The position numbers and the translations under genes are program-made. From a virus, in IMG/VR virus record IMGVR_UViG_3300038701_000498, positions 1 through 45,191 of that record: a stretch of DNA of 45,191 bases; one strand, given 5' to 3'. The notes below the pieces were generated by a model, which was given only the letters and a program-made list of their open reading frames with translations, ran no database searches and had not been told where the DNA came from. Shown here piece by piece: positions 30,391-43,804 of this stretch (positions within the stretch are counted from its first letter, which is position 1; every line of letters begins with the position of its first letter).

Positions 30391-30409
30391 GGTATGCGCC
30401 GCGCATACC
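30391..30409. repeat. Dispersed palindrome 1
   Basis: GGTATGCG-CCG-CGCATACC: perfect 8-bp arms, 3-nt loop. It lies 110 bp before the first early gene. Confidence 0.9.
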
Positions 30410-30519
30410 AAGAAACCCCCCATAGCGTCGCACAATCGCTGGCAATGTACGCCAAGCCATGCCATAAAGAGATTGTCAGGACGGATTGGCCGCCTGACCT
30501 AACACAAGGAAACTTCACT

Positions 30520-31059
30520 ATGACCACCAAGAATTCCGCCGCGATCGCTGACATTTTCGCTGACATTGCCAAGGCGGTGAAGGCCCACGACACTCGCATG
30601 GCGACGCTGGTCGCGCCGCTGGTCAAGGCGGGCGTCGATCCGACCAAGGCCCTCAAGCCTGAGGGTGAGTGGTACGATGACTTCCGCGGCGCGGTCGCGG
30701 CGGCGTACCTGACCGGACCGCAAGCGGCGGCGGTTCTGGACCCCAGCGTGTCCGGTAAGGCCAAGGTTGGCAAGCTGACCAAGGCGGATCTGACCAAGCG
30801 GCTCAGCTCGAGCGTGTCCAAGGTTCGCGCCGCGGTCATCAAGGCAATGGGCGCCAGCGCCGCCGGCGACGCCCCCAAGGGGTCCAAGCGGTCCGAATTC
30901 GAAACGATGTACGATCGGATCAAAAAGGACCGCGACACGCTGGCCAGCGCGATTGACGGGACGTCGAAGTCGGCATTCTGGAAGGAATTCACCGGCGACG
31001 TGACCGACGCCCGCAAGGCGCTGGACGCCGCGCTCAAGGCGCTCGACGCTCTCAAGTAA
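30520..31059 (+). CDS. Early protein of unknown function with its own terminator
   Basis: The start is ATG 30520, 9 nt after AAGGA. The 179-residue product is mainly helical, Ala/Lys-rich and basic: MTTKNSAAIADIFADIAKAV, a WYDDFRGAVAAAYLTGPQAA segment, SSSVSKVRAAVIKAMGAS, and a C-terminal helix of repeating ALDAALKALDALK. It is the only gene between two control regions and is followed by a perfect terminator, so it is a monocistronic early unit. Basic helical character and position hint at a DNA-binding or host-takeover protein. No family recognised. Confidence 0.75.
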   Translation: MTTKNSAAIADIFADIAKAVKAHDTRMATLVAPLVKAGVDPTKALKPEGEWYDDFRGAVAAAYLTGPQAAAVLDPSVSGKAKVGKLTKADLTKRLSSSVSKVRAAVIKAMGASAAGDAPKGSKRSEFETMYDRIKKDRDTLASAIDGTSKSAFWKEFTGDVTDARKALDAALKALDALK

Positions 31060-31065
31060 CACCAC

Positions 31066-31097
31066 GCCCCGCACGGTTCGCCGTGCGGGGCTTTTTT
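31066..31097 (+). terminator. Perfect rho-independent terminator
   Basis: GCCCCGCACGG-TTCG-CCGTGCGGGGC followed by TTTTTT: an 11-bp perfect stem with a TTCG loop, starting 6 nt after the stop codon of the early gene. Confidence 0.95.
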
Positions 31098-31149
31098 GTG
31101 TCTGGCGTTTCGACGCCAGTTTCGAAGAAACCAGTTCCGCGCCTCTGGT

Positions 31150-31163
31150 AGCAGCGGAGAGCC
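31150..31163. repeat. Degenerate copy of the 30-bp repeat
   Basis: Only the core AGCAGCGGAGAGCC is exact here. It is 89 and 215 bp from the other two copies. Confidence 0.6.
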
Positions 31164-31227
31164 GCGAGGCGGCCGGCGTTCTCGGCGCAGTCGGGCGGGT
31201 TGCAAATTTGCAAAGTCCGCCTCGATG

Positions 31228-31257
31228 CCAGTTTCTCTAGCAGCGGAGAGCCTGAGC
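31228..31257. repeat. 30-bp direct repeat, copy A
   Basis: The unit starts CCAGTTTCTCTAGCAGCGG and ends CCTGAGC. It is identical to copy B at 31354-31383 and is followed 11 bp later by palindrome 2. Confidence 0.9.
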
Positions 31258-31268
31258 CGAGCGCACGA

Positions 31269-31287
31269 GGTATGCGGCGCGCATACC
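31269..31287. repeat. Dispersed palindrome 2
   Basis: GGTATGCG-GCG-CGCATACC, perfect 8-bp arms, in the repeat-rich stretch; no gene follows directly. Confidence 0.9.
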
Positions 31288-31353
31288 GCCCCGGCGGATT
31301 CGGCGTGGTCGACCTACCCAACAAAGCGCACGAACGACCTACCCAACACGACA

Positions 31354-31383
31354 CCAGTTTCTCTAGCAGCGGAGAGCCTGAGC
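31354..31383. repeat. 30-bp direct repeat, copy B
   Basis: Exact copy of 31228-31257, 126 bp further on. Palindrome 3 follows after 33 bp. Confidence 0.9.
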
Positions 31384-31416
31384 GCGTCGGCGAGCCCGGC
31401 GGACCGGACCCGCGAG

Positions 31417-31433
31417 GTATGCGCGCCGCATAC
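31417..31433. repeat. Dispersed palindrome 3
   Basis: GTATGCG-CGC-CGCATAC; its right end touches the stop codon of the minus-strand zinc-finger gene. Confidence 0.9.
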
Positions 31434-31690
31434 TACTCGTCGTTACCTTCGATCTCAGATATCACGTGGGCGCGGAACCGCTTCGCGTGTTTCTCATAAG
31501 ATCTAAGCTTAAATATAAGGAAACGCTCGTGGTCGAGCTCCCGAGCCAGCCGCTCGTTTCGGCACGTCCTGCAACACACGACGTCGGGTTCACCAAGCTT
31601 AGATGTAAGTTTTACCCGGTGAACACCGTGCAACGGAGATCTAAGGCAGTAGGTGCAGGTGTTAGATTTAAGGTTTGCGACGCGGGCCAC
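31433..31690 (-). CDS. Small zinc-finger protein embedded in the repeat region
   Basis: GTG 31688-31690 starts an 85-residue frame, with AAAGGA 6-7 nt upstream. The product has a CTYC and CCRTC pair (residues about 12-15 and 39-43), giving a four-cysteine zinc site, and a basic, helical C-terminal half (RLARELDHERFLIFKLRSYE). It is the only minus-strand gene right of the late operon. TTAGAT-type half-sites lie both inside it and just upstream, so it could be a regulator or replication factor acting on them. That is inference; no family is recognised. Confidence 0.6.
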   Translation of the reverse strand: MARVANLKSNTCTYCLRSPLHGVHRVKLTSKLGEPDVVCCRTCRNERLARELDHERFLIFKLRSYEKHAKRFRAHVISEIEGNDE

Positions 31691-32282
31691 CGTATTTCCT
31701 TTCGATCTAAGTTAGATGTTTGCTTAGATTACCCTTAGATGTTCGGTTTAACAAGCGGAAACCGCCGTTCTTAGATCTAAGATAACCTTAGATCTAATAA
31801 ACTACAATGCAAAAAGCTACATTGCTACATTAGGCGGCTTGTAACCCCTTGATATTAAAGCGATGTTCCTAATGTTCCAATGTTCCGGGTTTTCCGAACA
31901 CAAGGGGGGTCAAACGCGGCGCGGCGCGAAATCGTCACGGTGTATTATGTTATCAGCACGCCGCCAGACTCCACAGGATTCTATTGTTTTCGAAAACTAC
32001 ATTAGGAACAGAGGAACATTTCATTTTTCATACATACTACTACTACTACTAAACCTAGAAAAAACAGGCACTTGCGCCCCCACCCCATGCCCCCATGTTG
32101 CAAAACAATGTAGCGTTTCGGCCTAAAAATTTAGCTACGTTTAGAACATTCTTATCTTTCAAGCACTTAGACCCCCTAACCTTAGATCTACAGAAAACCC
32201 CGAAATGTTGAGAAAGTGTAAGCCCCGGCCGCCCCGAGCTGCACACACCCCGATAACCTGAAATCTAAGATCTTAAATCTAA
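31691..32282. other. AT-rich iteron-like tract, candidate replication origin or operator array
   Basis: From about 31500 to 32282 base composition drops to AT-rich, unlike the rest of the window. TTAGAT or its complement ATCTAA occurs 15 times from 31501 to 32282. Pairs are arranged as perfect palindromes, for example CTTAGATCTAAG at 31770-31781. Three AATGTTCC-type repeats lie near 31863-31886 and inverted copies near 32005-32020, with a TAC microsatellite near 32035-32050. I see no gene in 31691-32282. Confidence 0.65.
31863..31886. repeat. Three tandem ATGTTCC repeats
   Basis: ATGTTCC (31863), AATGTTCC (31871) and AATGTTCC (31879) lie 8 bp apart. Inverted copies (GGAACA at 32005 and GGAACATT at 32013) lie about 120 bp downstream. 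Confidence 0.75.
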
Positions 32283-32301
32283 GGTATGCCAACCGCATAC
32301 C
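32283..32301. repeat. Dispersed palindrome 4
   Basis: GGTATGCC-AAC-CGCATACC, with one arm mismatch; it abuts the last ATCTAA half-site of the AT-rich tract. Confidence 0.8.
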
Positions 32302-32406
32302 GCCGATAGGCGTCTACCGCACTATAGCCCCCATGGGCTACATCTATTGACTTACACCCTATAATATGTTATTCTGTTGACAGTTGTCGTGAGTTCTTGG
32401 TTACCC

Positions 32407-32426
32407 GGCCGTCGCCTGCGACGGCC
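32407..32426 (+). other. Hairpin with 9-bp GC stem
   Basis: GGCCGTCGC and GCGACGGCC pair perfectly across a 2-nt gap. A short pyrimidine run (CTCTTT) lies a few bases downstream, so weak terminator activity on the plus strand is possible. Confidence 0.55.
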
Positions 32427-32490
32427 CCGCTCTTTGACATCGTTGGTCCGGTCCACCCGTAGGGGGTGCGACCATGCTCAGCTAGGTCCG

Positions 32491-32507
32491 GTATGCGTCC
32501 CGCATAC
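32491..32507. repeat. Dispersed palindrome 5
   Basis: GTATGCG-TCC-CGCATAC in the non-coding stretch; same loop as palindrome 6. Confidence 0.9.
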
Positions 32508-32709
32508 TTCGACCGATGATGCGAGAACTGTGTCTGCCACTCCGGCGCACGTGCGATGGTATCGTATGGCCTGAACGCTGCTCATGCAGCGCAGTCAGGA
32601 TGCGTGCCGATCAATAACCAAGAGAGCGTGTCCACGCAGCCCCGCTGCCCACAAGGACACCGACAAATAGGCTTGAGCCTTCGCACCATGCGTCGGGACG
32701 GAGCGAAAG

Positions 32710-32728
32710 AGTATGCGTCCCGCATACT
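32710..32728. repeat. Dispersed palindrome 6
   Basis: AGTATGCG-TCC-CGCATACT, perfect 8-bp arms; no gene starts in the following 200 bp. Confidence 0.9.
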
Positions 32729-32820
32729 TATGCCACGTGTTCCCAGCGCCCGCACCTACTGAGAATGTCTAGGTGAACGGTGCCGATGCAGTTCGTTACA
32801 GCTAGGAGATTGATAGTTTG

Positions 32821-32842
32821 GGTAGCCCCTGCAGGGGCTGCC
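32821..32842 (+). other. Perfect 16-bp palindrome able to form a 9-bp RNA stem
   Basis: AGCCCCTGCAGGGGCT (32824-32839) is extended to nine pairs in RNA with a U-G wobble. It lies about 105 nt upstream of the first gene of the plus-strand cluster. Confidence 0.6.
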
Positions 32843-32946
32843 TTCTGGTGTCAATCGAGTGTGTGGGTTGGGTAACCTGCACAACACCGAAACCACCGGG
32901 GTGCAACACAACCACGCAACCGCGCCCCCTAAAAGGAGAGACCAAC

Positions 32947-33144
32947 ATGCCCACAACAACACCCACACCCACGAAGAAGTACCGCCTCGTCCCGATGCGT
33001 CGTCTCGCCCCTGAACCGGGCCACTACTGGGAGCTGCGCCACCCCGACGGCTACTGGGTCGGGCCCGAGCTCGGCCTTTTCGAGACGGCTGGCGAGGCGC
33101 TCGACTGGCTGCACAACCACCTGCGCGGTATGCGCCGCGCATAA
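32947..33144 (+). CDS. Small early protein
   Basis: The start is ATG 32947 after AAAAGGAGAGACCAAC. The 65-residue product begins with a Thr/Pro run, then KKYRLVPMRRLAPEPGHYWE, an acidic/aromatic stretch and a C-terminal ALDWLHNHLRGMRRA. The final codons GGT ATG CGC CGC GCA TAA are the dispersed palindrome itself, so the palindrome supplies both the C-terminus and the stop codon. Function unknown. Confidence 0.65.
   Translation: MPTTTPTPTKKYRLVPMRRLAPEPGHYWELRHPDGYWVGPELGLFETAGEALDWLHNHLRGMRRA
33128..33144. repeat. Dispersed palindrome 7, overlapping a stop codon
   Basis: GTATGCG-CCG-CGCATAA, last base changed to make TAA. It ends 16 nt before the next start codon at 33161. Confidence 0.85.
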
Positions 33145-33160
33145 CAAGGAGACTAACAAC

Positions 33161-33439
33161 ATGCCTACATTCGACTCGCTGACCCTCGCCCTGCCCGCTC
33201 ACTGGCTGCCCACCCTCATCAACGGCGACACCACGCACCTCGACGACGAGGAGTACGCCCAGCTCGCCCGCTGGGAACTCGACATGTTGAACGAATTCGG
33301 CCCGCTCATGTTCGAGCTGCCCGAGGATGCCGAGACTCACTTCGCCCGCTACCACGACGCCGCCGAGTACGGCGTGCTGGCCTGCGACTGCTACGACATC
33401 GAAGTGTGGTTCCACGCCGAGACTGAGGCCGCGGCCTGA
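33161..33439 (+). CDS. Small conserved phage/bacterial protein (DUF6926-like)
   Basis: The 92-residue product begins MPTFDSLTLALPAHWLPTLI, with NGDTTHLDDEEYAQLARWEL and a FARYHDAAEYGVLACDCYDI segment. The PAHWxxxLINGD and HDAxxYGVLACD blocks recur in small plasmid and phage proteins that I recall as DUF6926; I cannot check the number. No enzymatic motif is evident. AAGGAG precedes the start and a palindrome precedes that. Confidence 0.7.
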   Translation: MPTFDSLTLALPAHWLPTLINGDTTHLDDEEYAQLARWELDMLNEFGPLMFELPEDAETHFARYHDAAEYGVLACDCYDIEVWFHAETEAAA

Positions 33440-33451
33440 GCCGCCCGACAA

Positions 33452-33468
33452 GTATGCGCACCGCATAC
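33452..33468. repeat. Dispersed palindrome 8
   Basis: GTATGCG-CAC-CGCATAC, 18 nt before ATG 33487. Confidence 0.9.
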
Positions 33469-33486
33469 CCAGAAGGAGAACAACGG

Positions 33487-33900
33487 ATGACTTACACGAA
33501 CTGGGTCTGGGAGCTCGGACCCGAGGAGCTGATCGGAAAGACGATCATCATGATAACGACGCGCCCTGACGAGGTGGAGTTCAAGCTGTCCGACGGTCGC
33601 ACGCTGGTCATGGGACACCAGCAGGACTGCTGCGAGAGCGTCACCCTCGAGGACGTTGTGGGCGACTGGGAAGACCTGCTCGATACGCCGATCCTTGTCG
33701 CCGAGGCCCGCAGCGACGACGCCCAGCTGATGCAGGACATGGTGGAGAGCCACCCGGACTACGACGAGTACAACTCCGAAAGCCAGACGTGGACCTTTTA
33801 CACCTTCCGGACGATCAAGGGGACCGTCGATGTGCGCTGGTTGGGCACGAGCAACGGGTACTATTCCGAGCGCGTCGACTGGGGCTGGCTGGAAGACTGA
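33487..33900 (+). CDS. DUF7448-like small protein
   Basis: The start is ATG 33487, preceded by AAGGAG. The 137-residue product has a strand start (ELIGKTIIMITTRPDEVEFK), DGRTLVMGHQQDCCESVTLE, a DVVGDWEDLLDTPILVAEAR segment and ends TFYTFRTIKGTVDVRWLGTS plus NGYYSERVDWGW. The HQQDCCExV and RWxGxSNGYYS blocks are those I associate with DUF7448 in phages and bacteria. Function is unknown. It is followed 2 nt later by the next gene. Confidence 0.75.
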   Translation: MTYTNWVWELGPEELIGKTIIMITTRPDEVEFKLSDGRTLVMGHQQDCCESVTLEDVVGDWEDLLDTPILVAEARSDDAQLMQDMVESHPDYDEYNSESQTWTFYTFRTIKGTVDVRWLGTSNGYYSERVDWGWLED

Positions 33901-33902
33901 CC

Positions 33903-34052
33903 ATGACCGCTGCCGCTGCAACCGCCCTCGCATGGCAAGCCTTGCTCGCAGGCATGCTGATCGGCGCGTGGCTCACCGCCACGCTGATATCGCTGCACCT
34001 CTACCTGCGTCGCCCGAGGCGGCGCGGTATGCGGCGCGCATACCGGAGGTAA
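33903..34052 (+). CDS. Small membrane protein
   Basis: The start is ATG 33903, 2 nt after the previous stop. The 49-residue product has one hydrophobic helix (WQALLAGMLIGAWLTATLIS) and a basic C-terminal tail (RRPRRRGMRRAYRR). Residues GMRRAY in that tail are encoded by the dispersed palindrome 9, so tail and repeat are the same DNA. It may be an inner-membrane accessory protein. Confidence 0.6.
   Translation: MTAAAATALAWQALLAGMLIGAWLTATLISLHLYLRRPRRRGMRRAYRR
34026..34044. repeat. Dispersed palindrome 9, inside the C-terminus of a gene
   Basis: GGTATGCG-GCG-CGCATACC, 11 nt before ATG 34056 and in frame with the membrane protein's end. Confidence 0.9.
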
Positions 34053-34055
34053 CAG

Positions 34056-34391
34056 ATGACAGATGACATCGACGACGACACCGACCAGCCGTGGCGCTGG
34101 TGGCCATCGTGGTGCACGCACAAAACCATCCGCAAGCTACGCTTCGTCGGCTCCACCGAGCGCTTCGACGTGTTCTATGACTCGTTCGACGATGACTACT
34201 CGCTGGTGCACGAGACCGGCTACCGGGTGTCGGCCGACGCGGAGCTAGAGCTCAACTTCTACATCTTCGAGGTGACCGACGAGGGCTTGATCCAGTTCGG
34301 CAACTACGCACCCAAGGAGGATCTCGACCCGCTCAACATGTGCCAGCTGTACCAGCTGCTAGAAGATTTCAAGGAGGTTAAACGTGACTAA
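34056..34391 (+). CDS. Hypothetical protein, paralogue of the 42404 gene
   Basis: GGAGG lies 6 nt before ATG 34056. The 111-residue product has a Trp-rich N-terminus (DQPWRWWPSWCTHK), FDVFYDSFDDDYSLVHET and a C-terminal DPLNMCQLYQLLEDFKEV. The DVFYD...DPLxMCxxxQxLE pattern is shared with the 42404-42730 gene, suggesting an ancient duplication. No catalytic motif; function unknown. Confidence 0.7.
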   Translation: MTDDIDDDTDQPWRWWPSWCTHKTIRKLRFVGSTERFDVFYDSFDDDYSLVHETGYRVSADAELELNFYIFEVTDEGLIQFGNYAPKEDLDPLNMCQLYQLLEDFKEVKRD

Positions 34392-34692
34392 ACAATTGAC
34401 AATCCGTGGGGTGACATACCCCAGCCGCAAGGCCGCTGCCGAGGCGCTCGGCGTGTCAGGCCAGACCATAACGACTGCCGCGAAACGCGGCACGCTGGAT
34501 TTCGTGGGTCGCGGACCGCGCAAGCCCGGGTGCGATCCGGCGTACACTTTACCCACGACGGTTGGCGGCGTGACATACCCCAGCCGCAAGGCGGCCGCCG
34601 AGGCCCTCGGCGTGACGCAGAACCACATCAGTGGCTACATCGCCGTGATGCACGCCCTGCTCGAGAAAGAGGAGGTTCACCACAATGCCTAA
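34384..34692 (+). CDS. Tandem NUMOD1-like DNA-binding protein
   Basis: GTG 34384 follows AAGGAGGT at an ideal distance. The 102-residue product is an internal duplication: GVTYPSRKAAAEALGVSGQT near residue 9 and GVTYPSRKAAAEALGVTQNH near residue 62. Each unit is a strand pair plus helix-turn-helix like the NUMOD1 modules attached to homing endonucleases, but no nuclease is fused here. It could be a free regulator or a remnant. DNA binding is likely by analogy; the target is unknown. Confidence 0.72.
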   Translation: MTKQLTIRGVTYPSRKAAAEALGVSGQTITTAAKRGTLDFVGRGPRKPGCDPAYTLPTTVGGVTYPSRKAAAEALGVTQNHISGYIAVMHALLEKEEVHHNA

Positions 34693-34930
34693 CACTAACA
34701 CCTACACACCCGAATGCACGGTATGCGGCGACGCATACTCCCAGCGCCGCGCGGCGCTGGGCTACCGGACATGCCTCGACTGCGGCGAGACGGCGGCGTT
34801 CGAAGAACGCCAGAGCTGGACTATTGTAGTATCCGCCAAAGGTCATTACACTAGGATAACCGACCCCGAAGATTTGAAGGAGCTAAACAAGTATGCCTCC
34901 CCGGAATCAAAGCGGTTCCCGCAACCCTAA
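34685..34930 (+). CDS. Zinc-ribbon protein
   Basis: The 81-residue product contains CTVCGDAYSQRRAALGYRTC and LDCGETAAFEERQSW, a four-cysteine ribbon, then WTIVVSAKGHYTRIT and a helix (DLKELNKYASPESK). Similar ribbons with an RAALGYRTC block occur in other phages. The last 38 nt overlap the HNH gene in another frame, so the C-terminus after LNKYA may have been altered when that gene arrived. A palindrome lies in frame within the zinc-site codons. Confidence 0.75.
   Translation: MPNTNTYTPECTVCGDAYSQRRAALGYRTCLDCGETAAFEERQSWTIVVSAKGHYTRITDPEDLKELNKYASPESKRFPQP
34721..34738. repeat. Dispersed palindrome 10, inside a gene
   Basis: GTATGCG-GCGA-CGCATAC with 4-nt loop; it encodes part of the zinc ribbon (V-C-G-D-A-Y). 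Confidence 0.8.
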
Positions 34931-35432
34931 CCACAGACATGGCATGTACGGTACCAAAGTATACACGACGTGGCAGCAGATGCGGCATCGGTGCAAGAAA
35001 GACCCAAGGTATGTTACCAACGGGACCAAGGTCTGCCCTGAATGGGAAAGCTTCGCCGATTTCTACGCGTATGTAGGGGATCCCCCCAGCGACGACCATA
35101 GCATAGACCGAATAGACCCGTTCGGGGATTACGAACCCGGCAACGTGCGGTGGGCTACGCGTCTAGAGCAGAGCCGCAACTTCCGCGTGCACAAGGAACG
35201 TGAACCGTACACCGTGGCTGCTGAACGTCATGGGCTACACCCGCAGACTTATGCGTACCGGATAAAGAACGGGATACCACTCTGCAAATCCACAGATTTG
35301 CGTAAGACGCACTGCATACACGGGCACGAACTATCCGAAGACAACGTGTACGTGTGTAAACGCGGGAAGCGGCACTGCAAAACATGTCGAAGAGACAGAG
35401 CTAGAAAGCTCAGAGAAACAAGGAGGAACTGA
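34893..35432 (+). CDS. HNH homing endonuclease with zinc finger tail
   Basis: The start is ATG 34893 with GGAG about 10 nt upstream. The 179-residue product opens with RHGMYGTKVYTTWQQMRHRC, then CPEWESFADFYAYVG, SIDRIDPFGDYEPGNVRWAT and EQSRN, the compact HNH family common in phages (catalytic His/Asn region around SIDRID...NVRW). A C-terminal finger (CIHGHELSED, then CKTCRRDRARKL) suits DNA recognition. AT-richer than neighbours and overlapping the zinc-ribbon gene. Probably mobile. Confidence 0.9.
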   Translation: MPPRNQSGSRNPNHRHGMYGTKVYTTWQQMRHRCKKDPRYVTNGTKVCPEWESFADFYAYVGDPPSDDHSIDRIDPFGDYEPGNVRWATRLEQSRNFRVHKEREPYTVAAERHGLHPQTYAYRIKNGIPLCKSTDLRKTHCIHGHELSEDNVYVCKRGKRHCKTCRRDRARKLRETRRN

Positions 35433-35433
35433 A

Positions 35434-35619
35434 GTGTCTCAACCAGAAAAGCAGGTGACCAACCAGATATGGCACCCCGACTACGGGCTGACCGCCGAGC
35501 TGCGCATAGCGGCGCTGCGTGAGGCTGAGCGCACGAGCGCGGCCGAGGCCGCCGAGATGTTCAACGTGCACGTGAGCAGCGTGCGCCGGTGGCGCCGACG
35601 CGTCGAAACCGGGGAGTGA
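35434..35619 (+). CDS. Small helix-turn-helix protein
   Basis: GTG 35434 follows AAGGAGG. The 61-residue product contains ELRIAALREAERTSAAEAAE and MFNVHVSSVRRWRRRVET, a homeodomain-like HTH in which the second helix (HVSSVRRWRRR) carries the basic residues that would read DNA. The N-terminus may contact another protein. It is a reasonable candidate for a regulator of the palindromes, but that is only inference from its presence in the same cluster. Confidence 0.75.
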   Translation: MSQPEKQVTNQIWHPDYGLTAELRIAALREAERTSAAEAAEMFNVHVSSVRRWRRRVETGE

Positions 35620-35673
35620 TCCCCGGTCTGGGTAGGTTGGCTACCTGCCCACTGATGAGACAAGCCGCAAAGA

Positions 35674-35690
35674 GTATGCGCAACGCATAC
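35674..35690. repeat. Dispersed palindrome 11
   Basis: GTATGCG-CAA-CGCATAC, 16 nt before ATG 35707 of the AAA+ ATPase. Confidence 0.9.
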
Positions 35691-35706
35691 AACAACGGAG
35701 AGACTA

Positions 35707-36804
35707 ATGACTAACAACGCACAGAAGATGTACGACCTGTCTATTGAACAGTGCGCCAACCTCATCAAGACCGTTGGGGCCAAGCGTACCGTCGTCGTAA
35801 CCGGCCACACCGGGACAGGTAAGAGCTCGATCGGCAAGCAGCTGGCAAGGGAACTACCTTCACATACCTTCTGCTACTTCGACTGCACGACCAAAGATCT
35901 CGGCGACATTTTCATCCCAAAGGTCGGCACCGCGGAAGCGTCGGACTATGTGTCCTTTGCGCCAAACGAAGAGTTCGGTATCCACCATGGCGGCCCCGTG
36001 ATCCTCATGATCGACGAGCTGGGCAAAGCCAACCCGATGGTCAAGAACGCGCTTCTCCGCGTCATGCAGGAGCGGCAGATCGGTGCGCAAACCTTACACC
36101 CTGACTCTATTGTGTTTGCCACCACCAACCTCGGTTCCGAGGGTCTTGGGGACATCCTGCCAGCCCATGCCCGTAACAGGCTGTGCATGGTCCGGATGCA
36201 AAAACCAGATCATCTGACTTGGATCAGCTGGGGTATCGACAACGGCATCGACCACGGCCTGCTCGGCTGGGTGCGGGACAACCCGCAGGTGTTCCAGAGC
36301 TTCGAGGACATCGGCAACCCGGACGACAACCCGTATATCTTCCACCCCCGTGCGACCGGGCGCACGTCCTTCGTCACGCCTCGCTCGCTCGAAGCTGCGT
36401 CGGACATCCTGAAGCTGCGCGAGTTCATGGACGACCAGAGCGTCACGGCTGCGCTCATGGGCACGATCGGTGACCGGGCTGCCATGGACATGATGGCCTA
36501 CGTCCGACTGGCAGATGACCTGCCGAAGCTCGCACAGATCAAGAGCGACCCCGAGAGCGCCCCGGTGCCGAAGTCCATCGCCGCCCAGTGCATGGTGGTC
36601 TACCGCACGCTGGCGAGCATCGAGCGCGACTGGATCGACGCGTGGATGACGTACCTCAACCGCATGCCGCGTGAGTGTCAGGGCATGTTCGCCAACGGCG
36701 TGCGCACCCCGGGCTACAGCCGGCAGGGTATCGTGATGACTAACGCAGGCTTCACGTCGTGGGCTCGCACGAACTCGTACCTCTTCGCCAGTGACAAGCA
36801 GTAA
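35707..36804 (+). CDS. MoxR/CobS-like AAA+ ATPase
   Basis: The 365-residue product has Walker A GHTGTGKS (residues 33-40), Walker B VILMIDE (98-104), a sensor-1 ATTN (138-141) and a likely arginine-finger region HARNR (154-158). The helical lid follows. MoxR/CobS-type ATPases work with a VWA-domain partner as remodelling machines on metallo-proteins or cofactors. A VWA protein is encoded 3.2 kb downstream and a DUF3150-like gene between them. GGAGAG precedes the start. Strong family confidence; the substrate is unknown. Confidence 0.88.
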   Translation: MTNNAQKMYDLSIEQCANLIKTVGAKRTVVVTGHTGTGKSSIGKQLARELPSHTFCYFDCTTKDLGDIFIPKVGTAEASDYVSFAPNEEFGIHHGGPVILMIDELGKANPMVKNALLRVMQERQIGAQTLHPDSIVFATTNLGSEGLGDILPAHARNRLCMVRMQKPDHLTWISWGIDNGIDHGLLGWVRDNPQVFQSFEDIGNPDDNPYIFHPRATGRTSFVTPRSLEAASDILKLREFMDDQSVTAALMGTIGDRAAMDMMAYVRLADDLPKLAQIKSDPESAPVPKSIAAQCMVVYRTLASIERDWIDAWMTYLNRMPRECQGMFANGVRTPGYSRQGIVMTNAGFTSWARTNSYLFASDKQ

Positions 36805-36824: not shown

Positions 36825-36841
36825 GTATGCGAGCCGCATAC
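36825..36841. repeat. Dispersed palindrome 12, with competing hairpin
   Basis: GTATGCG-AGC-CGCATAC, 17 nt before ATG 36859. An alternative 9-bp stem GCGGCTCGC (36815-36823) with GCGAGCCGC (36829-36837) uses overlapping bases, so only one can form. Confidence 0.85.
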
Positions 36842-36858: not shown

Positions 36859-37461
36859 ATGAGACTGAACACCGACATCCGCAACATGATCCTCAAGAAG
36901 GCGATGGCCTCGGTGCCGAGCATTAACTACCACCCCCTGATGGCTGCCGTGGTGCAGAACGTCCTCCGGGACCACATGCCGCTGCACATCCAGATGGCCT
37001 ATGACGACCTGAAGCAGCGCCCCTACCTCAACACGTTCTCCGTCAGGCTGAAGGAGGGGAACTTCGGGACGCCCATTCTGGATGGCAGCGGGCGCTATAA
37101 CTACCACCAGTTCTACGGTCACTCGACACAGCGTGGTGAGCTCGTTGTCAGGGTCGACGGGCTGGGCCACCACGCTGGCCCTCTGCATGGGGCCATATCC
37201 GACGCCATCATCGCCAGTGGCTACTACGCCAAGCACAAGGAACAGGAGGAGCTCCTCTCCAGTGTGCAGTCCCGGCTGCTCAACACCCTCCGCAGCGTGA
37301 CAACCGTCAAGCGGTTGTATGATGTGCTCGAGCCCGAGCTGCACCACCTGATCCCCAAGGAGAGCGACAAGAACGCTCTCCTGCCAGCCGTCGCTGCCCC
37401 TGTGGTGGACGACCTGCGTAAACTGGGCGCTGACCTGCCCACCATCCCCAAAGCGAAGTGA
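36859..37461 (+). CDS. Hypothetical protein, possibly Nmad5-like
   Basis: The 200-residue product starts MRLNTDIRNMILKKAMASVP, has a Tyr/Gly-rich centre (YHQFYGHSTQRGELVVRVDG) and a helical second half (QEELLSSVQSRLLNTLRSV). The N-terminal MRLNTxIRxxIL block recalls the nucleotide-modification-associated Nmad5 family, but I cannot confirm this without comparison and give it low weight. It follows the ATPase gene with a palindrome in between. Function otherwise unknown. Confidence 0.55.
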   Translation: MRLNTDIRNMILKKAMASVPSINYHPLMAAVVQNVLRDHMPLHIQMAYDDLKQRPYLNTFSVRLKEGNFGTPILDGSGRYNYHQFYGHSTQRGELVVRVDGLGHHAGPLHGAISDAIIASGYYAKHKEQEELLSSVQSRLLNTLRSVTTVKRLYDVLEPELHHLIPKESDKNALLPAVAAPVVDDLRKLGADLPTIPKAK

Positions 37462-37478: not shown

Positions 37479-37495
37479 GTATGCGGGCCGCATAC
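37479..37495. repeat. Dispersed palindrome 13, with competing hairpin
   Basis: GTATGCG-GGC-CGCATAC. No gene starts between this copy and copy 14, 60 bp on. A competing 9-bp stem (37469-37477 with 37483-37491, one G-U pair) also exists. Confidence 0.85.
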
Positions 37496-37537: not shown

Positions 37538-37556
37538 AGTATGCGGGCCGCATACT
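37538..37556. repeat. Dispersed palindrome 14
   Basis: AGTATGCG-GGC-CGCATACT, 8-bp arms, followed 16 nt later by ATG 37573 of the DUF3150-like gene. Confidence 0.9.
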
Positions 37557-38493: not shown

Positions 38494-38512
38494 GGTATGC
38501 GGCGGGCATACC
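38494..38512. repeat. Dispersed palindrome 15, with competing hairpin
   Basis: GGTATGC-GGCGG-GCATACC, 16 nt before ATG 38529. A 9-bp alternative stem pairs GCCCGCCGC (38485-38493) with GCGGCGGGC (38499-38507). Confidence 0.85.
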
Positions 38513-38528
38513 AACCAAGGAGAAAGAA

Positions 38529-38933
38529 ATGGGTTATAGCTCAGACGTGGTCATCGGTGTCGCGTTCAAGACGCGCAAGCAGATGGAGGAGGTTCTGGCG
38601 GTGTACCGCATGGACCCCAAGGTGCAGAAGCACAACGTGATGAAAGAGTGGAAGCTCTGCCCCGACCACGAACCACCGTACATGGTGTTCACTGGCAACG
38701 ACGTGAAGTGGTACGATTCCTACGAGGACGTACAAGCGTTCGAACATATCGCCAGTGTGTGCGGAGATTTCGCCGACGAGCGCGGTTTCGAGTATGCCTA
38801 CCGCATAGTGCGTATCGGTGAAGCAGACACCGATGTAGACGTCGATGACAGCTACGACAACGACGATTACGACCTGATGGATTTTCTCCAAGACAACCTC
38901 TACCCCATCCGCCGCATTGACTGCGACCTGTAA
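38529..38933 (+). CDS. Conserved hypothetical phage protein
   Basis: The 134-residue product opens MGYSSDVVIGVAFKTRKQME and has an acidic C-terminal half (GEADTDVDVDDSYDNDDYDL). The MGYxSDVxxxxxF start is found in several phage and bacterial small proteins of unknown role. AAGGAG lies before the ATG and palindrome 15 lies before that. A partial palindrome (38792-38808) occurs in the coding sequence. Confidence 0.7.
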   Translation: MGYSSDVVIGVAFKTRKQMEEVLAVYRMDPKVQKHNVMKEWKLCPDHEPPYMVFTGNDVKWYDSYEDVQAFEHIASVCGDFADERGFEYAYRIVRIGEADTDVDVDDSYDNDDYDLMDFLQDNLYPIRRIDCDL

Positions 38934-38948
38934 ACAAGGAGACCAACA

Positions 38949-39695
38949 ATGGCTTTTGCAATCTCAACCGCGAATATCCCTAGCATCTTCAGCTACACCG
39001 ACGCGCTGCGTTACCATGACCGTGCGGCCCAGAAGCCGTGGCGCAACGGCGGCGAGGACTTCCCCTTCCCCGAGAAGCGGGTCCGGCAGTACGGCGTGCG
39101 CAAGCTAAACGACGGGAGCATCGCGTTCCGCCTGCACAGCACCGACGTGGTGACGTGGCACCCTGACAACTCGCTCACGCTCGAGGTGTACACCAGCCAG
39201 AGCACCCAAGCCTTCGCCAACTGCCTGCTGCCTTACGGTGTGTCCACCGGCGGCGGGATGACCCGCCTCGAGATCGGCCGGAACTGGAAGGCCCAGAAGA
39301 TGTATCCCATCGCCGACACCGTGCACATCGCACCGGACCACGAGACCATCGACACACCCGTGGTGTGGGAGAGGCGCAGGACCGACCGCAAGGTGGCCCG
39401 GCGCGTGCTGGCCGAGACCCGCTATGCCGAGTACCGGGAGTGGTACAAGCTGATGCGGTCCATGATGACCGAGCCCCCCAAGCTGCTGGGTTTCTGGTCC
39501 CCCCGAGAGACGGTGGCGATGCTTGCCGATCAGAGCTTCTGGCATGACCTGATGACGTCTTGGTCCGGCGGCACACCGGACGACGTGCGCTACGCGATCT
39601 ACGACCAGACCAACGAGCCCGTCTTCTACCACGAGCGCATGCCCTACGTGGTCGGGCACAACGCCCTCAAGAGCTGCTACGCGGTGTCGAAATGA
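38949..39695 (+). CDS. Hypothetical protein within the AAA+/VWA cluster
   Basis: The 248-residue product starts MAFAISTANIPSIFSYTDAL, has a KPWRNGGEDFPFPEKR segment, and a beta-rich first half (GSIAFRLHSTDVVTWHPDNS, TLEVYTSQSTQAF). The second half is helical with several Trp. It lies 16 nt after the previous gene without a palindrome, so it is probably co-translated with it. No known domain is recognised. Confidence 0.65.
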   Translation: MAFAISTANIPSIFSYTDALRYHDRAAQKPWRNGGEDFPFPEKRVRQYGVRKLNDGSIAFRLHSTDVVTWHPDNSLTLEVYTSQSTQAFANCLLPYGVSTGGGMTRLEIGRNWKAQKMYPIADTVHIAPDHETIDTPVVWERRRTDRKVARRVLAETRYAEYREWYKLMRSMMTEPPKLLGFWSPRETVAMLADQSFWHDLMTSWSGGTPDDVRYAIYDQTNEPVFYHERMPYVVGHNALKSCYAVSK

Positions 39696-39698
39696 GCG

Positions 39699-39715
39699 GT
39701 ATGCGCAACGCATAA
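39699..39715. repeat. Dispersed palindrome 16
   Basis: GTATGCG-CAA-CGCATAA, one base off, 17 nt before ATG 39733. Confidence 0.85.
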
Positions 39716-39732
39716 CAACAAGGAGAGACACG

Positions 39733-39948
39733 ATGACACATGACTACAACCGTCGCACGGGGCTCAGCGCCGCTGTGCATCGCTTCCGAGACGACGCGGC
39801 TGTCCACGTAGGCACCGGCGAGACTGCCTACCTCACACCGAAGCAGGCGCGGGCTCTGGCCCGCGCTTTGTATACAGTCGCCCGGGATATCGACAACAGG
39901 GCGTTCACCGAGAGCGAGGTCGCTCCGGTACAGATCAAGATTAACTGA
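39733..39948 (+). CDS. Small hypothetical protein
   Basis: The 71-residue product has a basic, helical core (TPKQARALARALYTVARDID) after a strand pair (VHVGTGETAYL). GGAGAG precedes the start. It is a two-helix small protein sandwiched between the AAA+ module and the VWA protein. Function unknown. Confidence 0.65.
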   Translation: MTHDYNRRTGLSAAVHRFRDDAAVHVGTGETAYLTPKQARALARALYTVARDIDNRAFTESEVAPVQIKIN

Positions 39949-39962
39949 AGGAGTAACCAACC

Positions 39963-41192
39963 ATGTTCCACAAAGCACTTACCCCTGCCCAACGGCTGGA
40001 CAAGGCCGTCATCGACATCATGGCCAAGCCGGAGCTTGTCGCCCTGTCGGGCGTCATGATGATCGGCAAGCGGGAGATCCGCGAGGGTATCCCCACGGCC
40101 TGCACCAACGGGCGTGACGAGTTCTATGGGCGCGAGTTCGTCGACGGGCTCAACGACGCCGAGCTGCGCTTCACCGTGCTGCACGAGGTGTACCACAAAC
40201 TGTACAAACACCTGACCACGTGGCGCTGGATGTTTGATGAGAATCCCAAGCTCGCAAATGTCAGCGCGGATTTTGTTGTGAATATACAAATACTTGACGA
40301 GCTCGGCAGGGGTGGCTGGGTCAAGATGCCCGAGGGCGGCTGCTACGACGACAAGTACCGGGGCTGGGACGCCGCGCAGGTGTTCCGCGACCTGCAGAAG
40401 CGCTTCCCCCCGCAGGAGGGCGGCGGTGGCGGCCAAGGCCAGCCGGGCCAGTCCGGGAGCGGTATGCCGGGTGGCATACCCGAGGGGTTCGACGAGCACG
40501 ACTGGGACGGCGCGCAGGAGATGACCGAGGCCGAGAAGCAAGACCTCGCCCGGGAGATCGACGAGGCGCTGCGTGCTGGCGTGCTGGCGGCGGGCAAGAC
40601 CGGGTCCGGCGGTGACCGGTCCTTCGAGGAGCTGCTGGCGCCGCAGGTCGACTGGCGTGAGGTGCTGCGCGAGTTCATCCAGACAACCTGTGCTGGCAAG
40701 GACTATTCCACGTGGAAGAAGCCCAACCGCCGCTACATGGGCGCGGGCTACTACATGCCGTCCGGCATCTCCGAGCAGATCGGCGAGATCGTCGTAGCGC
40801 CAGACATGTCCGGCTCGACCTTCACGCCGAGCATGATGCGCACCATCATGGGAGAGCTGAAAGGCATCGTCGAGTCCGTCAAACCCGAAGGGGTGCGTAT
40901 CCTCTACTGGGACACCGAGGTCTGCGCCGACGAGTACTACGGCGGCAACGAGCTGGACGGCCTGATGACTTCGACCAAGCCCGAAGGCGGTGGCGGCACG
41001 CGCGTGTCCTGCGTGTCCGACTATATCCGCGACAAGCAGATCAAGGCCCAGTGTGTTATCGTCCTGACCGACGGCTGGCTCGGAGGGGATTGGGGTAACT
41101 GGCATCACGAAACCCTGTGGGTTATCGCCGGCAACGATCGCACCACGTCGCCCGTCGGTAAGACGGTGCATGTGCGAGAGCAGGATATGTAA
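39963..41192 (+). CDS. Zincin plus VWA-domain protein (DUF2201-like), AAA+ partner
   Basis: The 409-residue product has an N-terminal zincin motif HEVYH (residues 74-78) and a further His at 83, giving HExxHxxxxH. A Gly/Gln-rich linker (residues 150-175) follows, then a VWA-like domain with the MIDAS sequence DMSGS (281-285) and a later VIVLTDGW strand. N-terminal putative metallopeptidase plus VWA is the DUF2201/CobT-like plan. VWA proteins of this kind partner MoxR-type ATPases. Protease activity is possible but not shown. Palindrome 17 lies in frame inside the linker. Confidence 0.85.
   Translation: MFHKALTPAQRLDKAVIDIMAKPELVALSGVMMIGKREIREGIPTACTNGRDEFYGREFVDGLNDAELRFTVLHEVYHKLYKHLTTWRWMFDENPKLANVSADFVVNIQILDELGRGGWVKMPEGGCYDDKYRGWDAAQVFRDLQKRFPPQEGGGGGQGQPGQSGSGMPGGIPEGFDEHDWDGAQEMTEAEKQDLAREIDEALRAGVLAAGKTGSGGDRSFEELLAPQVDWREVLREFIQTTCAGKDYSTWKKPNRRYMGAGYYMPSGISEQIGEIVVAPDMSGSTFTPSMMRTIMGELKGIVESVKPEGVRILYWDTEVCADEYYGGNELDGLMTSTKPEGGGGTRVSCVSDYIRDKQIKAQCVIVLTDGWLGGDWGNWHHETLWVIAGNDRTTSPVGKTVHVREQDM
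40461..40480. repeat. Dispersed palindrome 17, inside the VWA gene, with compensatory change
   Basis: GGTATGCC-GGGT-GGCATACC, encoding G-M-P-G-G-I-P in the linker. Position 8 is C paired with G instead of G paired with C, a compensatory swap. Confidence 0.85.
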
Positions 41193-41208
41193 ACAACCCA
41201 CCCGCCGT

Positions 41209-41225
41209 GTATGCGGCGGGCATAC
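41209..41225. repeat. Dispersed palindrome 18, with competing hairpin
   Basis: GTATGC-GGCGG-GCATAC, 17 nt before ATG 41243. A 7-bp alternative stem pairs CCCGCCG (41201-41207) with CGGCGGG (41214-41220). Confidence 0.85.
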
Positions 41226-41242
41226 TCAAAAGGAGTTATGAG

Positions 41243-41890
41243 ATGAACGAAGACCGCAAAGCTGCGCTCATCGAGCGCTACCGTGACATCAACGTCGACC
41301 ACGACTGGTGGGAGCACACCTACGAGGACTTCGAGCGGATCTGCACGATCCTCGGGATTGAGTTGCACAGAACCTCGACCATGACGCCGCGGGGTCGGGG
41401 CAGTCGCCCTGACATCGAGTTCTCCGGCTTCTGGTCGCAGGGTGACGGGGCGTCGTGGACCGGGGCCTACCGGGCGCGGGAGTGGGCATCCCTGCACAGG
41501 GTCCACACCTACGACATCGCACCGGCCAAGATCAGGGAGCACGCTCCCAACGACGAAGAGCTGCACCGCATCGCCGACGAGCTCTGTCTGCTGGCGAGGA
41601 TCTACTACCCAGCCTACGGCGTGGTGGAGCGGGCTGGGCGCTACAGCCACTCCGGCACCATGCGCCTCGCATACTGCGAGCCGGTGGAGGAGGACGAGGA
41701 CGCCTACGCCGAGGAGGTGCACACCCACGTCGAGGAGACGCTGACGCAGCTGTTCCGGGACTTGGCCGACTGGCTCTATGCGCAGCTCGAGCGGGAGTAC
41801 GAGCATCTGACCAGCGACGAGTCGGTGTGGGACACAATTCAAGCCAACGAGCTCGATGAGGACGAAGAGGAGGATGAGGACGCAGCATGA
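41243..41890 (+). CDS. Conserved phage protein (antitoxin-like annotation in relatives)
   Basis: The start is ATG 41243, with AAGGAG upstream. The 215-residue product has a helical start (DRKAALIERYRDINVDHDWW), ICTILGIELHRT, a FSGFWSQGDGASWTGAYRAR block, ELHRIADELCLLARIYYPAY and a very acidic C-terminus. The FSGFxSQGDGAxFxGxY and HRIADEL blocks define a widespread phage/bacterial family that is sometimes labelled as antitoxin of a stability system. That label is unproven. It overlaps the next gene by 4 nt. Confidence 0.7.
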   Translation: MNEDRKAALIERYRDINVDHDWWEHTYEDFERICTILGIELHRTSTMTPRGRGSRPDIEFSGFWSQGDGASWTGAYRAREWASLHRVHTYDIAPAKIREHAPNDEELHRIADELCLLARIYYPAYGVVERAGRYSHSGTMRLAYCEPVEEDEDAYAEEVHTHVEETLTQLFRDLADWLYAQLEREYEHLTSDESVWDTIQANELDEDEEEDEDAA

Positions 41891-42267
41891 GTAAGACACT
41901 GGACCGGCTGTGCCGGGAGCTATGGGCGGCGGAATACACCCCGCCGCAGTGGCGCGCAGCCTCCGGCTGGGCCCGAGACCCGGTGCACTGGCTCGCTCTT
42001 GAGCTGAAGCAGGCGGGCATGGACACTCGCGAGCGGCTCTGGCGCGTGACGTACAGCGCAGATGCGCCGATCCACACCGTGTCGATCGACCTGCCGGTCA
42101 GCGACGAGGAAGGCACGGAGCACATCTTCGACAGCTGGGATGACCTGCCGGAGTGGATGCAGGACCGCATCCGGGCGCTCGGTATGATTACCGGCAAGCC
42201 GCCGACAGGCTGGATCGACGGGATCGGCCGCCGCATGTCCGACACAGTTTACTGGGTGGTGGAGTGA
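41887..42267 (+). CDS. Hypothetical protein
   Basis: The 126-residue product overlaps the preceding gene by 4 nt (ATGA). It is Trp-rich and mixed alpha/beta (AAEYTPPQWRAASGWARDPV, LWRVTYSADAPIHTVSIDLP, EHIFDSWDDLPEWMQDRIRA). No family is recognised. Its stop overlaps the GTG of the next small HTH gene by 4 nt. Confidence 0.65.
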   Translation: MSKTLDRLCRELWAAEYTPPQWRAASGWARDPVHWLALELKQAGMDTRERLWRVTYSADAPIHTVSIDLPVSDEEGTEHIFDSWDDLPEWMQDRIRALGMITGKPPTGWIDGIGRRMSDTVYWVVE

Positions 42268-42404
42268 GAAACGGCAACAGAGAAGCGGTCCTGCAGCTCA
42301 CGCTGCGGGGCCTGACAGCCAGAGAGATCGGTGACCTGCTGGGCATCGCCATGGGCACCGTATACGCGCATCGGTATGCGCTGCGCATACAAGGGAGATT
42401 GTGA
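42264..42404 (+). CDS. 46-residue helix-turn-helix protein
   Basis: GTG 42264 overlaps the previous stop (GTGA). The product contains LQLTLRGLTAREIGDLLGIA followed by MGTVYAHRYALRI, a compact LuxR/sigma-4-type HTH. The Tyr-Ala-Leu-Arg-Ile end (RYALRI) is encoded by dispersed palindrome 19. Too short for a complete regulator; it may act as a dimer or adaptor. Confidence 0.6.
   Translation: MRNGNREAVLQLTLRGLTAREIGDLLGIAMGTVYAHRYALRIQGRL
42374..42390. repeat. Dispersed palindrome 19, inside the end of an HTH gene
   Basis: GTATGCG-CTG-CGCATAC, in frame with the HTH gene's last codons and 13 nt before ATG 42404. Confidence 0.9.
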
Positions 42405-42730
42405 TGGCAGGTGAGAGTAACGAACCAAGGTGGCCTATACCTCACGGGTTAAATCCCGAATGCTTCATATTCTTGGCGCGCGAAGAGGTGTTCGACGTGT
42501 GGCATGACATGCGTGACGGCGACCTCATGGTTGTTACCAGCCCCGACACCGATCTGTTCGCAAACTACGATTACATACATGCGCGCCACGGTGAACCAGA
42601 CATAGGCGATATCGCCAAGATGGACCCGCTCTCCATGTGCATAGCCCACCAAATCTTGGAGAAATACTACGATGGCAGCAACGCCAGAAGCAAAGGTCAA
42701 AGCCAAAGTCACCAAGCTGCTGAAGGCTAG
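42404..42730 (+). CDS. Hypothetical protein, paralogue of the 34056 gene
   Basis: The 108-residue product starts MAGESNEPRWPIPHG and has EVFDVWHDMRDGDLMVVTSP, DLFANYDYIHARHGEPDIGD and DPLSMCIAHQILEKYY. DPLxMCxxxQxLE matches the 34056 gene. It overlaps the VRR-NUC gene by 59 nt; the segment after EKYYDG may be a frame tail only. Function unknown. Confidence 0.65.
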   Translation: MAGESNEPRWPIPHGLNPECFIFLAREEVFDVWHDMRDGDLMVVTSPDTDLFANYDYIHARHGEPDIGDIAKMDPLSMCIAHQILEKYYDGSNARSKGQSQSHQAAEG

Positions 42731-42983
42731 GGGGGCTTACTACTTCTACCCTGTCACCGGCGGCTACGGTGGGTCGGGGGTGCCCGACATCATCGCCTGC
42801 CACCGCGGCAGGTTCATCGGTATCGAGTGCAAGGCGGGCAAGAACAAGCCGACCAAGCTGCAGGAGCGGAACCTCGAGCAGATCAAGCACACGGGCGGCT
42901 TCGCCCTTGTCATCAACGAAGACAACCTGAGTGAGTTAGAAACAACTCTGAACTACGTGGAGACACTATATGCAACGAAGTAA
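42672..42983 (+). CDS. VRR-NUC nuclease (PD-(D/E)XK)
   Basis: The start is ATG 42672 with GGAG about 9 nt upstream. The 103-residue product has VPDIIACHRGRFIGIECKAG: catalytic Asp39, Glu52 and Lys54 in the PD-(D/E)XK arrangement, with Gln64 in LQERNLEQI. The short VRR-NUC form is known from phages and bacteria and can act on branched DNA, including four-way junctions. It would be a resolvase candidate for recombination or packaging. Good family confidence. Confidence 0.88.
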   Translation: MAATPEAKVKAKVTKLLKARGAYYFYPVTGGYGGSGVPDIIACHRGRFIGIECKAGKNKPTKLQERNLEQIKHTGGFALVINEDNLSELETTLNYVETLYATK

Positions 42984-43464
42984 CACAGGCTTCGAGCCGG
43001 AGATCCACTCCGTGCTCGTCACGGACCAGCTGGAATCCATGAGCACGTTCGGCCATGCCGACAACGGCGAGGGGGTGTTTATCCCGGCCGTCGTGGCCCG
43101 GGCGGCGCAGATTAAGATCGGCGACACGATCATAGCCTCTCTGGTCCCGAACAACCACAGCAACAACACCCCATGGTTCGCCATGCACGTGCACGGCGCA
43201 GGGGAAGAGATCGCTACCGACACGTGGCTGCGGATGTCCGACGAGGCCGTCCTCGCCCTGCTGACAGAAGAGCCGCTGACTACGCAGGAGATCGCCGATG
43301 AGCTCAAGGTGCCCCGCACGCTGGTGCACTCCCGGATGAACGGTCTGTTCCGGGCCCGGAAGGTGGTGAAGAGCATGGTGTTCGACAACCCCAACAAGGA
43401 AGCAGCGCCGGCAGCGGTGCTATGGGGCCGCACCGTGGAACAGTTTATGGGAGAAGAAGAATGA
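42970..43464 (+). CDS. Protein with C-terminal winged helix
   Basis: The 164-residue product overlaps the VRR-NUC gene by 14 nt. Its first half is beta-rich (VFIPAVVARAAQIKIGDTII and PWFAMHVHGAG), OB-like in rhythm. Its second half has EEPLTTQEIADELKVPRTLV and SRMNGLFRARKVV, a winged-helix DNA-binding unit. It may be a regulator or replication accessory. No specific family is named. Confidence 0.65.
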   Translation: MQRSNTGFEPEIHSVLVTDQLESMSTFGHADNGEGVFIPAVVARAAQIKIGDTIIASLVPNNHSNNTPWFAMHVHGAGEEIATDTWLRMSDEAVLALLTEEPLTTQEIADELKVPRTLVHSRMNGLFRARKVVKSMVFDNPNKEAAPAAVLWGRTVEQFMGEEE

Positions 43465-43703
43465 TCGAGAAGCTATTGTTTGCGCTACTGATTGCGTCAG
43501 TGGCTATGCTTGGTGTGTCTATGCACCTCACACAGCAACATGTTGACCTGTTGCAAAGCACCCGCAGCGCGCTGGCAGATGAGACAACGGAGCTGCAGGA
43601 GCTGCTCACGTCTATCGAAGACCGCGCCGCTGAGTATGATTGCTTCGTGCGGCAGGGCGAGTGGCATCCCGAGTTTGGGTGTGCGTTGGAGCTGCTGGAC
43701 TAG
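43461..43703 (+). CDS. Membrane-anchored coiled-coil protein
   Basis: The ATG overlaps the previous stop by 4 nt. The 80-residue product has an N-terminal transmembrane helix (LLFALLIASVAMLGVSMHL) and a helical, charged remainder (ADETTELQELLTSIEDRAAE) ending with two cysteines. It may be an early inner-membrane protein involved in superinfection or signalling. No family recognised. Confidence 0.65.
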   Translation: MIEKLLFALLIASVAMLGVSMHLTQQHVDLLQSTRSALADETTELQELLTSIEDRAAEYDCFVRQGEWHPEFGCALELLD

Positions 43704-43804
43704 TGTGGGAACATATGCTATTCGGTATGCTCTACGCATACTGCGTGGTGAAGTATGACACCATGGAGGACGTAGGCGAATGTCTATGGCTCCTGACAAA
43801 CTGA
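43703..43804 (+). CDS. 33-residue hypothetical protein
   Basis: GTG 43703 overlaps the previous stop (TAGTG), with GGAG 11 nt upstream. The product is MWEHMLFGMLYAYCVVKYDT plus MEDVGECLWLLTN, amphipathic with a hydrophobic first half. It fills an otherwise empty gap exactly, and dispersed palindrome 20 lies in its codons. Translation is plausible but not certain. Confidence 0.5.
   Translation: MWEHMLFGMLYAYCVVKYDTMEDVGECLWLLTN
43725..43741. repeat. Dispersed palindrome 20
   Basis: GTATGC-TCTAC-GCATAC, with an imperfect seventh pair, inside a small putative gene. Confidence 0.75.

Follow-up and report, generated by a model that had tools for sequence, protein, structure and literature searches.

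The 45,191-bp virus record IMGVR_UViG_3300038701_000498, referred to in its entirety as the window, carries a family of short palindromes of the form GTATGCG-N3-CGCATAC scattered through its early genes. These palindromes are probably the dispersed operators of a phage-encoded, sequence-specific and dimeric DNA-binding regulator of early genes, most likely the product of the first early gene (30520-31059, plus strand, 179 aa). As a whole, the sequence comparisons reported here point to a previously undescribed viral DNA-binding switch protein together with its set of landing sites. No description of the palindrome family was found in the open literature, subscription journals lying outside the search.

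The late structural genes of the window are located on the minus strand, and the early genes occupy the plus strand from approximately 30.3 kb onward. An initial annotation had listed some 20 palindrome copies, and all 20 positions were read in the sequence. Eighteen of them are 17-mers (12 exact, and six with one mismatch at 32284, 33128, 38495, 39699, 41209 and 43725), all confined to positions 30392-43741, the early plus-strand third. The two others are 18-bp variants, with spacing increased by one, that lie inside genes: one at 34721..34738 in a zinc-ribbon open reading frame (ORF; 34685-34930), and one at 40462..40479 in a metallopeptidase gene. They may not be members of the family, although they are kept in close relatives (the former in L041, L046 and L065, the latter in L041). 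The arms had been described as conserved around a free loop; the loop does vary, but the strictly conserved arm spans six rather than seven nucleotides (GTATGC-N5-GCATAC), with positions 7 and 11 being variable. Allowing up to three mismatches, we observed 23 matches in the window compared with 2.4 ± 1.6 in dinucleotide shuffles (maximum of 6 in 100 shuffles). When all perfect 7-3-7 palindromes of the window were ranked, the GTATGCG arm occurred 12 times and every other top-ranked arm once. A match with two mismatches at 1105, in the late region, is probably due to chance.

Ten of the 17-mers precede a start codon by no more than 40 nt. More specifically, they are found at 33128..33144 (one mismatch; 16 nt to the start at 33161), 33452..33468 (exact; 18 nt to 33487), 34027..34043 (exact; 12 nt to 34056, overlapping the end of the upstream ORF), 35674..35690 (exact; 16 nt to the AAA ATPase start at 35707, a place occupied in nearly all relatives), 36825..36841 (exact; 17 nt to 36859), 37539..37555 (exact; 17 nt to 37573, the start of a DUF3150-like gene), 38495..38511 (one mismatch; 17 nt to 38529), 39699..39715 (one mismatch; 17 nt to 39733), 41209..41225 (one mismatch; 17 nt to 41243) and 42374..42390 (exact; 13 nt to 42404). 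Random placement yields a mean of 1.25 start-adjacent copies, and ten were never attained in 20,000 trials. The close association with starts therefore stands, with gaps of 12-18 nt where 11-18 nt had initially been given, and so does the lack of palindromes before coupled downstream genes, which held for the eight coupled starts at 33903, 34384, 34685, 34893, 35434, 38949, 39963 and 41887.

The remaining eight 17-mers are located away from any start. Six of them occur in and around the non-coding region that houses the first early gene, at 30392..30408, 31270..31286, 31417..31433, 32284..32300, 32491..32507 and 32711..32727; all are exact except the copy at 32284, which has one mismatch. The first of these, a putative autoregulatory operator, precedes the first early gene by 111 bp. 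The other two are an exact copy at 37479..37495, which forms a second site upstream of 37573, and a copy with one mismatch and no adjoining start at 43725..43741.

We used the AAA ATPase gene (35707-36804, plus strand; phrog_1297) as an anchor and compared 80 viral contigs that contain a relative, of which nineteen longer or complete ones were examined over their full length. At the position upstream of the ATPase gene, nearly all relatives carry a perfect palindrome, in many different sequences, including GTTAGTG-N3-CACTAAC, GTTAGGG-N4-CCCTAAC, TTTACGGAATTCCGTAAA and TGTATACATATGTATACA. The initial annotation would have given up a regulatory role if homologous genes in related phages lacked the palindromes; the relatives keep a palindrome at this place, with a different sequence. 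Further palindromes among them comprise GTTATAAC-N2-4-GTTATAAC, CCTGAC-N4-GTCAGG and more, and other half-sites include TGTATACA and TTTACGG. The window's own palindrome is common to three near relatives, and a scan of viral contigs for the exact palindrome returned mostly unrelated single matches, with only three contigs having five copies. Most contigs contain a single palindrome sequence in 4-23 copies of fixed total length, uniform within the genome, and this length differs between phages from 16 to 21 bp. In the pair L114 and L120, near-identical flanks surround an exchanged palindrome. Confinement to the early half is also seen beyond the window: across 20 genomes, 4 of 163 perfect sites lie inside a minus-strand gene call of 150 aa or more. 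Two of these four are in the window and are possible miscalls, because the mechanical minus-strand ORF calls overlap early genes or their leaders. HTVC023P and CRP-901, in which the portal is shared, contain no comparable set of palindromes.

The candidate regulator belongs to a protein family recognized by its position and by sequence profile. An iterated profile identified 46 members at the first-early-gene position, one per contig, including the window protein. With the window omitted, the profile of the 45 relatives ranked the window ORF first of 433 ORFs (E = 0.0015) at the same genomic position; leave-one-out profiles for seven other divergent members gave E-values of 1e-7 or better. Searches of Pfam and PHROG gave no match for the protein, nor did a profile comparison with the PDB; it has no recognized helix-turn-helix (HTH) or other DNA-binding motif, and a tblastn search with one family member against 50,697 phage records returned no relative. 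AlphaFold models are mainly helical, with a mean predicted local distance difference test (pLDDT) score of 85 for the member from genome G009 and 78 for the window protein, and Foldseek found no structural match for the G009 model. In most relatives, a palindrome lies approximately 98 to 145 bp upstream of the first-gene start. This placement, roughly 100-145 bp ahead of the gene, suggests that the first gene may be autoregulated; no common promoter position for it was found among the relatives.

This gene co-varies with the palindrome. We compared 38 distinct first-gene proteins, with half-sites derived from a mechanical consensus (a few assigned by eye) and close pairs defined by an ATPase identity of at least 85%. 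Among close pairs, first-gene proteins are 68% identical where the palindromes match and 23% where they differ. The gap is wider in the central helix region, with 78% identity for pairs with the same half-site (n = 23) against 19% for pairs with different ones (n = 27). The partial Mantel correlation is 0.42 in the central region (reached in 0 of 5000 permutations) and drops to 0.35 in the core and 0.16 in the C-terminus. By comparison, 16 other core early genes show no palindrome-dependent gap among close pairs (for example 91 vs 91 and 70 vs 70); a few of them have raised partial correlations, mostly based on few contigs and without a close-pair gap.

Individual genomes illustrate this relationship. 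Phages G008 and G020 have different palindromes, despite 97-100% identity across most of their early genes. The first gene of G020 shares 50% identity with that of G008 and 77% with that of G009, and it is with G009 that G020 shares its palindrome. Between the first proteins of G008 and G020, the central helix region is 4% identical and the C-terminal part 85%, such that G008 combines the C-terminus of G009 and G020 with a central region of another type. In L106, a phage of another lineage, a central region resembling that of G008 is joined to a different C-terminus, and the palindrome is that of G008. Domain shuffling is thus visible in this family. Furthermore, L082 and L083 have ATPases that are 98% identical, different palindromes, and first-gene cores with 13% identity.

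Other candidate binders were considered. The initial annotation had proposed the small HTH proteins of the window for this role; the palindrome is tracked by the first early gene instead, whereas the conserved HTH_17 protein shows no such relation, being 98% identical between phages with different palindromes. Two uncharacterized proteins of about 300 aa, encoded downstream of the VWA gene, evolve fast, and their close-pair identity is palindrome-independent (70 vs 70 and 65 vs 65). The same comparisons bear on the view that the palindromes are generic structural elements, namely mRNA-stabilizing, RNase-cleaved or repetitive extragenic palindromic (REP)-like repeats without a dedicated trans-acting protein. 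A location between genes and before Shine-Dalgarno (SD) sequences would be in keeping with such elements, but structure alone would not give identity within a phage, difference between sister phages and a tie to one protein gene, and we regard this view as highly implausible.

With regard to the nature of the target, the initial annotation had left a dimeric DNA-binding protein and an RNA hairpin side by side, and the data favor DNA. Half-site pairs occur at the exact family length in 354 of 376 cases, with 15 at plus one. Single-mismatch pairs comprise 15 G-U, 11 A-C and 55 other combinations, where 13.5, 13.5 and 54 would be expected if pairing played no role. A constant stem sequence around a loop that is free to vary likewise befits a symmetric DNA site. 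In addition, many sites are not placed before starts: about 14 of 23 in G014, and most of the 12 in Rhizobium phage RHph_TM3_14A, lie in non-coding stretches or inside genes. Fixed spacing, the missing wobble preference and a co-varying phage gene speak for a DNA operator, to which the first-gene product would bind directly and as a dimer.

An RNA-level operator would be a leader hairpin before the SD, bound as RNA by the first-gene protein either for translation control or, like lambda N at boxB, for modification of the polymerase. The positions speak for it, with a median of 19 nt from palindrome to start codon and 8.5 nt from palindrome to SD, as does the location of the site within the transcribed leader in relatives with clear promoters. 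N/boxB pairs of lambdoid phages are likewise phage-specific, and some GC-rich relatives have a second, covarying hairpin that overlaps the palindrome from upstream (7 of 7 sites in L067 and 4 of 4 in L071). This second hairpin is rare elsewhere and hence not part of the core system; we noted one in the window at 33128, 36825, 38495 and 41209. However, single-mismatch pairs show no G-U excess, a fixed stem with a free loop is unlike most protein-bound RNA hairpins, many sites are non-coding or intragenic, and the first-gene site is some 100-145 nt from its start. On balance, an RNA target appears unlikely.

The promoters of the relatives give an indication of how bound DNA sites might act. Consensus sigma-70 promoters (TTGACA/TATAAT) were identified approximately 45-75 bp upstream of about 20 start-associated palindromes in relatives, which places the palindrome within the transcribed leader, outside the promoter itself. 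The corresponding places of the window yielded no consensus promoter, and the roadblock step of the mechanism therefore rests on the relatives. In the proposed mechanism, the regulator, putatively the 30520-31059 product, would bind the site upstream of its own gene as well as sites just before the SD of a subset of early genes. Once bound, it would most likely block transcription elongation, and the resulting repression would shut down or tune the early genes as the regulator accumulates. Replacement of the DNA-contacting part of the protein would be accompanied by a change of operators throughout the genome, with specificity switching as a unit.

Alternatively, the palindromes could be hairpin promoters for a phage RNA polymerase, with transcription starting just downstream of each. 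Hairpins with a 3-nt loop, close to the start site, serve as promoters of the N4 virion RNA polymerase, and the AAA ATPase has a distant relationship to its Schitoviridae counterpart. Against this, the virion RNA polymerase (vRNAP) and RNA polymerase II (RNAPII) subunits of Vibrio phage pVa5 were unmatched in any relative, while the ATPase control gave 73 matches; host-type TTGACA/TATAAT promoters are present, and the co-varying gene is not a polymerase. We consider promoters of this type very improbable.

Several observations weigh against operators bound by the first-gene protein. The link between palindrome and start, at 17 nt in five of the ten window copies, is closer than a roadblock would require, and such a link is also expected of translational control. 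A site length of 16-21 bp would demand an altered dimer geometry between phages, and a shared set of six half-site letters does not guarantee protein similarity in distant pairs. The first-gene protein lacks a recognized DNA-binding motif and any Pfam, PHROG or structural match. The window member is weakly tied to its family by sequence, as the E-value of 0.0015 indicates, and the contigs of its close, L041-like relatives stop short of the first early gene.

The same DNA operators could chiefly serve superinfection immunity, excluding related phages from an infected or lysogenized cell and thereby driving the rapid switching of specificity. As a special case of the operator explanation, it overlaps with that explanation in probability, and we rate it as rather doubtful. 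Specificity does switch between near-identical genomes, as in the immunity groups of cluster A mycobacteriophages. Yet neither a tyrosine integrase nor ParB was found in 13 genomes (the window being a fragment, and serine integrases lying outside the search), and a search of 85,462 bacterial and archaeal genomes revealed no relative at the sensitivity used; lysogeny is therefore not indicated. The missing ParB homologue also led us to reject dispersed centromeres of the ParB/parS type. On these grounds, the phages look lytic, and exclusion of related phages during lytic infection is possible.

Returning to the operators of a first-gene regulator, ten to twenty binding sites that change together with their protein are poorly explained by stepwise mutation, and near-identical genomes that differ in almost nothing else open this coordinated change to study. 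The helical, unannotated first-gene family would add a new type of sequence-specific regulator, one that comes with its own series of specificities. A more far-reaching proposal, which we advance tentatively as a real possibility, is that the regulator is a new family without a known fold in apparently lytic phages, in which a swap of the central domain exchanges specificity and all operators switch in step. If true, such swapping would give lytic phages an equivalent of immunity groups. Similar systems in two named phage genomes, one of them a cultured Rhizobium phage, make the idea of a first-gene regulator testable.

Additional features were noted around the palindromes. The first early gene is followed by a terminator-like hairpin with a T run (31066..31096, plus strand), read in the sequence. 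After the first gene and terminator, nearly all relatives (G001-G020) contain 2-4 GATACCAGTTC...GCGTTGAGCC-like repeats, as does the window at 31110-31378, where three CCAGTTTC / TAGCAGCGGAGAGCC copies are present; such repeats often adjoin a palindrome. Nine CTTAGATCTAAG-like 14-mers occupy non-coding sequence at 31447-32285, and arrays of short AATGTTC/AATGTTAC-like repeats, resembling replication-origin iterons, occur in the non-coding region of the window (approximately 31865-31890) and of G004, G005, G008, G011, G015 and G020. Probable homing-endonuclease-like genes are located at 19331-20452 and 34384-35432; the late genes include a GIY-YIG-like protein, recognized by reading the sequence, and the early genes a tandem NUMOD1-like protein and a possible HNH-type gene. 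The gene at 36859-37461 is Nmad5-like (nucleotide modification associated domain), a hint of modified phage DNA. Tandem TAELNILDGVT repeats were seen in a late-region protein (7870-8922) that is probably tail-related. Among the relatives, G012 (L175, L176) has intein-like insertions in the terminase large subunit and an SNF2-like helicase, and a giant late protein matches DarB-like and LPD39 families. Alongside L211, three records (OL906435, OQ594354 and PP438419) name different cyanobacterial hosts, are all 65,014 bp long and have identical match statistics; the stated hosts are possibly wrong, because the region that was read is 68% GC.

Among known systems, the closest in function are the stoperators of cluster A mycobacteriophages (L5, Bxb1, TipsytheTRex), where 20-30 short sites are dispersed per genome, some of them intergenic and one upstream of the repressor gene, much as described here. 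Site consensus and repressor change together between cluster A phages, and a phage-specific consensus with co-variation is also seen in our set. The elongation block proposed for stoperators would fit the position of the palindromes downstream of promoters in relatives. In contrast, cluster A sites are 13 bp long, asymmetric and oriented with transcription, whereas those studied here measure 16-21 bp, are symmetric and are linked to gene starts. The cluster A repressor, to which the first-gene protein is unrelated, binds as a monomer and contains both an HTH and a Stoperator domain, and cluster A phages are temperate. Streptomyces phage phiC31 has about 18 palindromic repressor sites of approximately 17 bp, the conserved inverted repeats (CIRs), near its early promoters; their sequence and the host group are different. 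In lambda, the early protein N and its boxB (nut) sites similarly join an early phage protein to phage-specific hairpin targets in the early leader. Lambda, however, has one or two nut sites per operon, compared with one palindrome before each of many genes here, and the mismatches do not favor RNA pairing.

A likeness to the start-associated sequences (SAS) and extended start-associated sequences (ESAS) of cluster K mycobacteriophages had also been suggested, and it extends to position, directly ahead of some of the gene starts, but not to the element itself. The SAS is a 13-bp asymmetric GGGATAGGAGCCC-type sequence that contains the SD and lies 3-7 bp before the start, while the palindromes end a median of 8.5 nt before the SD. 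The ESAS consists of paired 17-bp inverted repeats with a variable spacer, as opposed to a single palindrome of fixed length upstream of the SD. The authors who described these elements were skeptical of RNA hairpins and suggested that the inverted repeats might be operators.

Two named phages carry comparable sets. In Rhizobium phage RHph_TM3_14A, 12 perfect GTTACC-N6-GGTAAC sites are spread over the early region, most of them intragenic and three at no more than 35 nt from a start. In the Planktothrix phage Pag-Yong1 record, GGTTCA-N3-TGAACC occurs 18 times, in the majority of cases 10-37 nt ahead of a start. Their first early genes show no detectable relation to the first-gene family, and these systems are thus possibly analogous and not homologous. 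Taken together, the system lacks defining features of both mycobacteriophage elements, functions most like the stoperators of cluster A and sits like the repeats of cluster K.

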